IMG/VR virus record: IMGVR_UViG_3300010158_000168
Span: 1-37,625 of that record
Origin: a virus
Length of the DNA stretch: 37,625 nucleotides
Direction: 5' to 3' (one strand)
The notes under the pieces were generated by a model. That model ran no database searches. It was not told where the DNA came from and worked only from the letters and a program-made list of their open reading frames with translations. Positions within the stretch are counted from its first letter, which is position 1; the number at the start of each line of letters is the position of its first letter. A program made the position numbers and the translations under genes. Positions 1,598-35,785 of the stretch are shown one piece after another.

Positions 1598-1605
1598 TAT
1601 CTTTG
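1598..1605 (+). promoter_or_regulatory. Bacteroidota-type promoter, -7 box TATCTTTG
   Basis: TATCTTTG matches the Bacteroidota -7 consensus TAnnTTTG exactly and is followed by C, as is usual. It lies in the gap after the 55-aa gene. A clear -33 TTTG is not visible upstream. The expected start of transcription is near 1611, placing a structured leader before the homing endonuclease and helicase genes. Confidence 0.65.
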
Positions 1606-1610
1606 CATTA

Positions 1611-1690
1611 GTAGAGTCGTCGCTACATTAAACATTTTATACAAATTCCACCATTGATAAAGACGACGACCTTTTGATATGGTGGTTTTT
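1611..1690 (+). ncRNA. Structured leader or small RNA candidate with terminator-like end
   Basis: Two 7-bp pairings can be read: GTCGTCG (1616-1622) with CGACGAC (1664-1670), and CCACCAT (1648-1654) with ATGGTGG (1679-1685), followed at once by TTTTT (1686-1690). The 5' arm of the second pairing lies inside the first and its 3' arm outside, which is the order of an H-type pseudoknot; the two can also be read as alternatives. GTAG/CTAC (1611-1614 with 1623-1626) could form a third small hairpin that competes with the first. The transcript could end at the U-run as an RNA of about 80 nt, or read through into the HNH gene at 1697. The structure is seen by eye only. Confidence 0.4.
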
Positions 1691-1696
1691 ACATTT

Positions 1697-2215
1697 ATGG
1701 AAATTTGGAAAGACATTAAAGGTTATGAAGGGGTTTATCAAATTAGTAATTTAGGAAGAATTAAAAGTTTGCCTAGAAAATTAAAAAATAGATATTCTTT
1801 TTTTTATTCAAAAGAAAAAATATTAAACTCTAACGTTGGGTATGGAGGTTATAGATTTCAAAAATTAAAAGACAAAATGTTTTCAGTACATAGATTGGTT
1901 GCTGAATATTTTGTTGACAAACCAGAAGGTAAAAACACAGTAAACCATAAAGATTTAAATATATTAAATAACAACGCTTCTAATTTAGAATGGATATCTC
2001 AAAGAGAAAACTCACATCATTATACGTTAACCAGAAAAAGAACTTCAAGGTATATCGGAGTTTGTTTTGATAAAAACAGAAATAAATGGAAAGCAAGAAT
2101 AAAAATTAATGATAAAACAATAAATCTAGGTCGTTTTGATTCCGAATTAGAAGCTTACAATAAATATTCAAATTATGCAAAAACTCAGGGATTATCAAGT
2201 AAATATAGCCAATAA
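1697..2215 (+). CDS. NUMOD4/HNH homing endonuclease with AP2-like DNA-binding end
   Basis: A free-standing phage homing endonuclease of 172 aa. The N-terminus MEIWKDIKGYEGVYQISNLG is a classic NUMOD4 start. The HNH core follows at about residues 64-105 (VHRLVAEYF, then VNHKDLNILNNNASNLEWIS), giving the His, Asn and His of the motif. An AP2-like segment (YIGVCFDKNRNKWKARI, then LGRFDSELEAYNKY) fills residues 118-160. The frame is open from 1679, but the ATG at 1697 begins the family's usual first residues and lies outside the upstream hairpin. Codons are A-ending and more AT-rich than the next gene, as expected for a mobile gene. Its last 41 bases overlap the helicase start in another frame. 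Confidence 0.9.
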   Translation: MEIWKDIKGYEGVYQISNLGRIKSLPRKLKNRYSFFYSKEKILNSNVGYGGYRFQKLKDKMFSVHRLVAEYFVDKPEGKNTVNHKDLNILNNNASNLEWISQRENSHHYTLTRKRTSRYIGVCFDKNRNKWKARIKINDKTINLGRFDSELEAYNKYSNYAKTQGLSSKYSQ

Positions 2216-3407
2216 AGCGTTAGAAATAATAAATGAAAAAGGAATCGTTTATCTTTCTATGCAAGTCAGAACAGGTAAAACTTTGACAGCTCTAGAAACT
2301 GCGAGGATGTATGGAGCGAAGAGGGTTTTGTTTATAACCAAGATCAAAGCCTTCTCATCCATACAAGGCGATTATAATAATTTCAAATATACATACGATA
2401 TCAATATAATCAATAAGGAGTCAGTTCATAAGCTTAATGATACCAGTTATGACTTTATTATTCTCGATGAAGCTCATCAGTATGGAGCCATGCCTAAGCC
2501 AGGTAAGTACCAGAAGATAATCCGTAAATTGTTTAGAAAGTTACCAATAATGTTTTTGTCAGGAAGTGTATCCCCAGAGACGTATTCTCAGGTATATCAC
2601 CAGTTCCAGATCTCAGACAGATCTCCGTTCTCAAAGTACACCACGTTCTATAAATGGGCTACCGATTATGTTGACGTGTTCATGAAGAACATTGGCTACT
2701 CTGTGGTCAAGGACTACACCAACGCTAAGTACGATAAGATCATCCAAGCCATCGAGCCATACATGATTACCTTCACCCAAGCCGAGGCTAACTTCACCAC
2801 ATCCGTAGAGGAGGAGATCATAGAGATCGACATGAAGCCAGTAACGTATGAGATCATCAGAAGGCTTCGTAAGGACTCAATAGTTAAGGGCAGTAGTGGA
2901 AACGTAATAATAGCCGATACAGCCGTTAAAATGCAGCAGAAGATACATCAGCTAGGATCTGGAACGATCAAGCACGAGGACGGCTCTTATCAAATAATAG
3001 ACACATCCAAGGCAGACTACATTAAGTGGAGGTTCAAGGATAATAAGATTGGGATCTTCTATAAGTACAAGGCTGAGCTTGAGATGTTGCGTCAAGTAAT
3101 CGGTGCAGAAAACTTGACACAAGATGTTGACGAGTTTAATAGTACAGACAAGTGGATCGCCCTTCAGTACATTAGTGGCAGAGAGGGAATCAACCTAAGC
3201 ATGGCAGACTATCTAGTGATGTTTAGTATTGACTTCTCAGCTACCACCTACTTCCAAGCAATCGATCGTATGACTGTAAAGGATAGAACACACAACAAGG
3301 TCTACTGGCTGTTCGCTAAGAACACATTGGATAAAAGCATTTACAAGACAGTAATCGGTAAAAAATCATTCACCCTAAATTATTTTAAGAAATGGAAGAA
3401 TACATAA
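2175..3407 (+). CDS. SNF2-type superfamily 2 helicase, 410 aa
   Basis: ATP-dependent DNA helicase or translocase, probably for phage replication or recombination. The motifs appear in order: the Q-like start LRDYQ (residues 4-8), Walker A VRTGKT (31-36), DEAH box in FIILDEAHQYG (94-104), motif III SGS (129-131), then in the C-terminal lobe a GREGINLSMADYLVMFS motif V and QAIDRM in place of the usual QxxGR of motif VI. Single-protein phage helicases of this size commonly show such a variant arm. The start overlaps the end of the homing endonuclease gene by 41 bases, so translation is probably coupled. The downstream 72-aa gene starts 16 bases before this stop. Confidence 0.88.
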   Translation: MQKLRDYQVNIANKALEIINEKGIVYLSMQVRTGKTLTALETARMYGAKRVLFITKIKAFSSIQGDYNNFKYTYDINIINKESVHKLNDTSYDFIILDEAHQYGAMPKPGKYQKIIRKLFRKLPIMFLSGSVSPETYSQVYHQFQISDRSPFSKYTTFYKWATDYVDVFMKNIGYSVVKDYTNAKYDKIIQAIEPYMITFTQAEANFTTSVEEEIIEIDMKPVTYEIIRRLRKDSIVKGSSGNVIIADTAVKMQQKIHQLGSGTIKHEDGSYQIIDTSKADYIKWRFKDNKIGIFYKYKAELEMLRQVIGAENLTQDVDEFNSTDKWIALQYISGREGINLSMADYLVMFSIDFSATTYFQAIDRMTVKDRTHNKVYWLFAKNTLDKSIYKTVIGKKSFTLNYFKKWKNT

Positions 3408-4209: not shown

Positions 4210-4217
4210 TACATTTG
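4210..4217 (+). promoter_or_regulatory. Possible Bacteroidota-type promoter, TACATTTG
   Basis: TACATTTG fits TAnnTTTG and lies 17 bases before the ATG at 4235, close to the spacing seen at other promoters here. The short leader between them is A/C-rich and contains CACACACA. No convincing -33 box is visible, so this is moderate evidence. Confidence 0.45.
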
Positions 4218-34957: not shown

Positions 34958-35228
34958 CTAGCATTGATTTTTCTTGTTCTATTCTATTAAGTATAGTGAA
35001 AGCATCTTCCACTGCCATCCTTTTTGAGGCAGCAGCATTTTTTAATTTATCTGAAGACAAATCTTCTTCTCCTCCTGTTATTATAATATCTTCTGCTACC
35101 TTTATAAGTTCTTCAATAGCCTTATATCCAGCGTTTATTATTTTATGTTTTAATTCTATAGATTTTTCCATTTTATCTAGTCTTACATGTCTATACAATA
35201 TACAATTATTCTCTTCTTTTAGTTCCAT
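34893..35228 (-). CDS. Candidate small terminase subunit or TerL-adjacent protein, 111 aa
   Basis: Helical, acidic protein directly upstream of TerL, where small terminase genes usually lie. The core reads LKHKIINAGYKAIEELIKVA and LKNAAASKRMAVEDAFTILN, two amphipathic helices suited to oligomer formation; no helix-turn-helix is clear. Its last 65 bases overlap the TerL start in another frame, giving a Gly/Ser-rich C-terminus. Small terminases are poorly conserved, so position is the main argument. It overlaps the preceding gene by 10 bases. Confidence 0.55.
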   Translation of the reverse strand: MELKEENNCILYRHVRLDKMEKSIELKHKIINAGYKAIEELIKVAEDIIITGGEEDLSSDKLKNAAASKRMAVEDAFTILNRIEQEKSMLDGESQAAKEPSIRGFAEGRSK

Positions 35229-35785
35229 TTTACTGTTATGTTATTAGTAAACATTCTGTATAGTTTCTCATCATCTACAATAAAAGGATACTCACTATCT
35301 GGCTCAAAAGACACCTCATCTCCAACCTTAAGACCTAGGTCTATAAGCTCTTGGTTGATATATTTTATTGTTCCAACTAGTGGTTCTTCAGTACCAGGCT
35401 TTATAATATAAGAATCCTTCTTTTCTGAAGGTTTTATAAAGCAGTACTTAGAGTGAGCCCTCCACTCTCCTTCATGACTGTATAGGAAGAACTGATCGTT
35501 CTCTATAAAGAACAGGTCATCCTTAAAGAACGAGAACCCACTCTTCTCTCTACCCCTCATGTCGTAGTATATCTTAAACACGTTATGGTGTACAAGCAAA
35601 ACATCTCCAGGGATTATATCCCCAGAGTATCCTAACGGAGTCTGTATTACCTCTGCAAATCTATTGGAAGCTGTATGATCTTCTTGGGATGTACTTGTTA
35701 TAAAGTCTATATCTCCAATCTTTTTAATGTTATCATATCTTCTTCCATTTACAGGTCTAACTATAAAATAGAATGGTGATCTCAT
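35219..35785 (-). CDS. Hypothetical protein with GroES-like features, 188 aa
   Basis: Beta-rich protein. The N-terminal half contains PGDVLLVHHNVFKIYYD, and the end (LGLKVGDEVSFEPDSEYPFI, then VDDEKLYRMFTNNI) has the order of the second strand pair and roof of chaperonin-10 folds: LKVGD, a turn, and a DDEKLYRM segment like GroES DNEEVLIM. This resemblance is from memory and weak. If right, it would be a phage co-chaperonin helping capsid folding. It could equally be an unrelated beta-barrel virion protein. It lies between small conserved-looking genes and the terminase pair. Confidence 0.35.
   Translation of the reverse strand: MRSPFYFIVRPVNGRRYDNIKKIGDIDFITSTSQEDHTASNRFAEVIQTPLGYSGDIIPGDVLLVHHNVFKIYYDMRGREKSGFSFFKDDLFFIENDQFFLYSHEGEWRAHSKYCFIKPSEKKDSYIIKPGTEEPLVGTIKYINQELIDLGLKVGDEVSFEPDSEYPFIVDDEKLYRMFTNNITVKWN

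Follow-up and report, generated by a model that had tools for sequence, protein, structure and literature searches.

In this work, the element at positions 1598–1690 of the window (the whole 37,625-nt stretch of viral DNA analysed, IMG/VR record IMGVR_UViG_3300010158_000168) was identified as a member of a phage RNA family in which a hairpin at the 5′ end and a terminator-like hairpin carry complementary loops. We hypothesize, with about even confidence, that it is the 5′ leader of an HNH–helicase unit and attenuates transcription close to the promoter, where the 5′ kissing hairpin would clamp the terminator. Comparative sequence support was obtained for the fold, the kiss, the fixed position of the promoter, the U-run, the closeness to a gene start and the recurrence at early genes. 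An attenuator is the simplest reading of a promoter, a hairpin flush with the 5′ end, a kiss to a terminator-like loop, a U-run and an adjoining gene.

The original prediction, made from this DNA alone, had described an exact TATCTTTG box, two 7-bp helices in pseudoknot order and a final TTTTT, and the sequence reads exactly so (Table 1). The order of pairing (A–B–A′–B′) also stands, but the form is another one: L1 and L2 each make up seven of the eight bases of a hairpin loop, so that their pairing is a loop–loop kiss of two hairpins and not a classical H-type pseudoknot. Two stems absent from that description, P1 (GTAG/CTAC) and P2b (AAAG/CUUU), close these loops. From 1648 to 1685 the window reads CCACCAT, UGAU, AAAG, A, CGACGAC, CUUU, UGAU and ATGGTGG in succession, and P1, P2 and P2b are all present in the minimum free energy fold of the single sequence, calculated without an alignment (z = −2.25). 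In Flavobacterium psychrophilum the TAnnTTTG box lies at −12 to −5 (PMC9723704), so the RNA is expected to begin at 1610, one base 5′ of P1, which gives a predicted transcript of about 80 nt for 1610–1690. The box of the window agrees exactly with the Bacteroidetes σA promoter, and its spacing to P1 is fixed in the family; the start site is a predicted one. For the open reading frame listed as starting at 1679, inside P2, the start was corrected, as relatives use the ATG at 1697, 11 nt after P2.

Table 1. Positions of the leader parts, genes and related features (window coordinates unless a phage or locus is named)
Feature	Position	Strand	Remarks
σA −7 box TATCTTTG	1598–1605	+	exact match to Bacteroidetes consensus TAnnTTTG
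Predicted transcription start (+1)	1610	+	from position of box
P1 hairpin, GTAG[A GTCGTCG]CTAC	1611–1626	+	stem GTAG/CTAC, 1611–1614 with 1623–1626; 8-nt loop
Kissing loop L1, GTCGTCG	1616–1622	+	7 of 8 bases of P1 loop; exact complement of L2
A/U-rich linker between P1 and P2	1627–1647	+	A/T columns invariant or nearly so
P2 terminator-like hairpin	1648–1685	+	stem CCACCAT/ATGGTGG, 1648–1654 exactly complementary to 1679–1685
P2 internal loop UGAU/UGAU	1655–1658/1675–1678	+	
P2b apical stem AAAG/CUUU	1659–1662/1671–1674	+	closes second 8-nt loop
L2, CGACGAC	1664–1670	+	P2b loop is A + L2; exact complement of L1
U-run TTTTT	1686–1690	+	directly 3′ of P2
HNH homing endonuclease, 172 aa	1697–2215	+	NUMOD4 + HNH_3 + AP2 (Pfam); start conserved at same spacing in relatives
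Superfamily 2 helicase (ResIII/DEAD)	2175–3407	+	Pfam; overlaps 3′ end of HNH gene
Single ORF, 2657 aa	6899–14872	−	on late strand
GroES-like co-chaperonin	35219–35785	−	phrog_13932; near terminase and portal genes
hattifnatt9-1 leader	about 9365		before helicase; loop with GCTTCG
hattifnatt9-1 leader	13306		before HNH gene; GTCGTCG
hattifnatt9-1 leader	14341		before gp044; GTGAGA
lillamy9-1 ParB-like gene	L407 457–1257		PF02195; at site of hattifnatt9-1 leader + HNH
78–79-residue protein family	L029, L031, L049, L056, L061, L069, L081, L095, L099, L261, L283		directly after type I leader

By blastn, 88.5% identity over 103 bp, from about the promoter to the gene start, was found in 34 Flavobacterium phage records, before an endonuclease gene, and dozens more copies were obtained by pattern scans of viral contigs. 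Strong covariation of the stems was seen on 45 sequences. Among type I leaders, 40 distinct sequences were compared: 98.7% of the cells are paired and 16 of the 22 pairs are changed on both sides. In the kissing helix, 100% paired in these sequences, 43 cells are double-changed and none is changed on one side only, the compensatory double changes falling at five of its seven pairs; P1 is likewise 100% paired, all four pairs having changed on both sides, and P2 covaries at six of seven pairs. The covariation score of 0.511, compared with 0.02–0.06 when the partners were slid and with 0 of 500 shuffles, is that of a structured RNA. A lack of compensatory changes in homologous regions had been named beforehand as what would count against the element; such changes were found, so the structure passed decisively, and the identity across phage records together with the covariation places it well beyond chance.

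At least ten loop codes, all exactly complementary, were collected with model R1 and the relaxed scans: GTCGTCG, GTCGTAG, GTGGTCG, GTGGACG, GTGGAAG, GTGGTAG, GTAGTCG, GTAGTGG, GGACTAG, GTCGCAG, GTCGCTG and GTCGCCG, plus others. A G–U pair occurs in the kiss of one copy, in L384. Some of the scans demanded complementary loops, but the model search and the loop-free pattern scan made no such demand; the covariation, together with the copies found by searches that did not require complementarity, therefore identifies the kiss as a real conserved RNA pairing. The codes differ within every genome carrying at least two leaders. Conceivably, though we consider it improbable, the loop pair could be a code that acts also between molecules, in which case terminated leader RNAs would pair through this kiss with further copies of themselves still being transcribed, a feedback on termination; no more probable is the corollary that each leader in one phage must differ in code so that cross-talk is avoided. 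For the eight type I–type I pairs, all-different codes have p = 0.04 with independent draws and p = 0.17 with permutation of the same copies, and differing codes are expected anyway between different leader lineages. The difference of codes within one type is thus weakly beyond chance, and a trans-acting, code-specific function is a lead rather than a result.

The position of the element is as constant as its fold. Of 110 copies, 91 have the first base of the TAnnTTTG box exactly 13 nt upstream of P1, and 106 have it at 12–14 nt; these counts measure spacing and not the share of copies with a box, as copies lacking a nearby box had mostly been removed earlier as chance matches. Directly after P2, at least four of five bases are T in 70 of the 76 type I copies, compared with a background of 7.5% in the same loci. 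Of 69 copies, 65 have the start of an open reading frame close behind, usually within about 20 nt of P2 in the family; within 90 nt no such start was found for L053, L089 and the second copy of L054. In L039, L043, L053 and L089 the type I leader is followed by ATATAACG... in place of a start codon, and the gene comes some 70–80 nt later or was not found. The fixed promoter distance, the T-run and the nearby gene start thus recur in the family, which bears out the promoter-driven RNA with a terminator-like end that had been proposed for the window.

A diverged group, type II (12 distinct sequences), has the form GCC...GCGA...CGC...GGC followed by AUUAACUUUU. It shares the kiss, the promoter spacing and a linker of a kind comparable to that of type I, and it has a long P2 with a poorer terminator tail. 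The architecture itself was then taken as the search pattern in a scan of 288 viral loci (2.14 Mb), a set enriched for phages carrying the family and hence not a census, for a TAnnTTTG box, a hairpin and a downstream hairpin with an exactly complementary loop. With 7-nt kisses, 118 matches were obtained, versus 0 and 0 in the reversed-loop and complemented-loop controls; shortening the kiss to 6 nt yielded 105 distinct matches, versus 3 and 3. Sixteen of the latter resemble neither type I nor type II; a hairpin with a direct T-run ends 15 of them, a feature which the scan did not require. Several of these 15 are mutually related and so not independent families. One of the 15, in L009, has the UGAU/UGAU internal loop as well. 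Taken together, a hairpin plus U-run stands between promoter and first gene in 70/76 type I copies, 15/15 other leaders and 0/12 type II. Three leaders, each with a loop code of its own, are present in hattifnatt9-1, a cultured phage of Flavobacterium (Table 1); at the relaxed settings, one chance match was seen on its other strand and one in the control. The diverged leader with the loop AAGTGAGACG is common to an uncultured contig (L374) and to the leader before gp044 of hattifnatt9-1 (L408 14341).

In the proposed mechanism, RNA polymerase would start at about 1610 and P1 would form at once. As L2 emerges, it would enter the 7-bp kiss with L1 and prop the weak apex P2b, which in type I consists only of AAAG/CUUU around an 8-nt loop. 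The kiss would thereby help or time the closure of P2 over UUUUU, much of the transcription would stop near 1690 as a stable RNA of about 80 nt, and the genes beyond would be reached by read-through transcripts only. Read-through would be the regulated step, set by a factor or condition acting on the P1–linker–P2 fold. That transcription terminates, that termination is regulated and in which direction the kiss works are points that we infer. No alternative antiterminator pairing was noticed in the leader, so a switch, if there is one, needs an outside factor. P2 was not listed by a simple terminator scan because its loop is too large for the rule of that scan.

The type II tail, AUUAACUUUU, is the main argument against termination as a universal function. 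It also favours the foremost alternative, which we regard as rather unlikely, namely a post-transcriptional leader of the 5′-UTR in which hairpin and kiss guard the mRNA 5′ end, P2 sets translation, or both, and the U-run is an A/U-rich entry site for ribosomes. Such a role would suit a P1 that in almost every copy follows the predicted +1 by about 1 nt, and 55 of the 76 type I copies have their start codon 9–12 nt downstream of the end of P2, so that an effect on translation is also possible. The U-run fits termination better, being selected in type I and recurring in the 15 leaders unlike types I and II.

Less probable still is a cis-acting antiterminator comparable to put of phage HK022, where a folded leader would bind RNA polymerase and carry it past the terminators of early operons. 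The put RNAs are two-hairpin RNAs of about 70 nt near the start of early transcripts, two per phage, with putL just downstream of PL (PMC9378689). The family resembles them in size (about 70–80 nt), in two interacting stem-loops near the start of an early transcript and in several copies per phage; this comparison is by description and an analogy only. Most copies here end in a terminator-like U-run of their own, and neither such an end nor a kiss of variable code is described for put, which belongs to phages of a different host phylum. The loop sequences here are free to vary, and no sequence kinship to put was shown.

We give marginally less credence again to the other role that the original prediction had considered besides an attenuator, a free small RNA of the phage; it would act in trans on RNAs of host or phage, with the downstream gene incidental. 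It would explain the element's own promoter, the compact fold closed at both ends, the terminator-like end and the few copies without a nearby open reading frame. Against it, the gene just downstream is nearly constant, which favours an attenuator or leader, and the two loops of each copy are paired to one another and vary in sequence from copy to copy, which leaves no target sequence in common.

In the window, one and the same transcript would cover the HNH and helicase genes. The original description of an element before a homing endonuclease holds there, but the element is not specific to such genes. Of 43 downstream proteins, picked to cut redundancy, 33 have HNH_3, 27 NUMOD4, two GIY-YIG and one T5orf172, and one is a helicase; others are putative nucleases with an IECK motif. 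A family of 78–79-residue proteins (MNTISVQGFKIDINHF...) matched no known family. Some type II or diverged leaders precede genes resembling a replication/primosomal protein of Polaribacter phages, and others precede genes that we read as probable VirE-like primases. Since leaders also stand before helicase, primase and replication-type genes, they are a device of early phage genes at large, which homing endonucleases carry as well. Autoregulation by the endonuclease was ruled out, the leader being common to unrelated endonucleases and to non-endonuclease genes, as was a type III toxin–antitoxin RNA, because the element is a single unit with no tandem repeats and lies before endonucleases and replication proteins, not ToxN-like ones.

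In hattifnatt9-1, leader and HNH gene occupy about 620 bp between an upstream gene and ssb, the start of which has diverged. In the phage filifjonk9-1, gp036, 97.7% identical to that upstream gene, runs straight into ssb, an empty site with sharp boundaries in a close relative, as is characteristic of a homing endonuclease cassette. The site between these two core genes is a hot spot of gene gain. In the helicase relative L002 (83% DNA identity downstream) leader and HNH are missing and three other genes take their place, the window and L008 are alike from exactly the promoter (1598) onwards, and L003–L007 have a related HNH without the leader. Leader and endonuclease are thus separable, yet have moved together in the present cases, and the homing endonuclease probably carries the promoter and leader inside its mobile cassette. 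The helicase gene, elsewhere ~83% identical to L002, departs from it over its initial ~115 bp (2175–2288); as with ssb beside the HNH of hattifnatt9-1, this looks like co-conversion of a homing flank. That the element is itself part of the mobility machinery, a recognition or insertion element and no expression leader, would agree with its place in the cassette and before several unrelated endonuclease families, but is very improbable given the same leaders before helicase, primase and other non-endonuclease genes and the leaderless homologous endonucleases of L003–L007.

The distribution points to phages. The loop-free DNA pattern found no copy in 400 Flavobacterium genomes and the model search none in 399 Flavobacteriaceae genomes, the latter a weak test without a positive control; a pattern scan of genome contigs gave chance-level matches only, among the matches listed, and plasmids contained none. 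So far, the element is thus known from phages only. Within the window, the search for further kissing leaders gave only chance-level matches inside coding regions, and nothing unusual was seen in the fold at a promoter-like box at 4210. Neither a kissing-loop attenuator nor this family was found described in the open-access literature, though an unnamed entry in a viral RNA catalogue is possible. Many related phages repeat the leader design ahead of early genes, and it has the look of an on/off switch not described before. If this is true, such leaders would make up a hitherto undescribed class of leader RNA in phages, one defined more by architecture than by sequence. The leaders sit at the start of early or replication units of Bacteroidetes phages, where little is known of early-gene control, and a mobile endonuclease would carry the same kind of regulatory leader as core genes of phages do. 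Because the loop codes are complementary and swappable, function can be approached with straightforward compensatory mutations, and a phage with three such leaders is in culture.

As predicted, the element matches no known family: Rfam cmscan gave no match at the gathering score, and chance-level snoRNA models were best at permissive thresholds. Among the Rfam families it does not match are Flavo-1, a Flavobacteriaceae motif, and HEARO, an RNA adjoining HNH proteins. HEARO serves IscB-type nucleases as their guide RNA, whereas the endonucleases here are small NUMOD4–HNH proteins. Classical attenuators and riboswitch terminators also place a terminator-like hairpin with a U-run in a promoter-proximal 5′ leader; in contrast to them, no leader peptide, ligand pocket or antiterminator stem was recognised here, and the 5′ hairpin kisses the terminator loop. 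At the λ tR′/6S RNA, a constitutive late phage promoter yields a short terminated leader and the genes beyond are reached by read-through only. The likeness lies in the promoter, the short and here putatively terminated leader and the proposed read-through; unlike it, the present leader is ~80 nt long, has a covarying kiss of the 5′ hairpin with the terminator-like hairpin and no known Q-type factor, and occurs in several copies before early genes. Plasmid antisense RNAs (ColE1 RNA I/II and pT181-type attenuation) use a loop–loop kiss with the loop sequence as a code, whereas both kissing loops here lie in one transcript and pair in cis.
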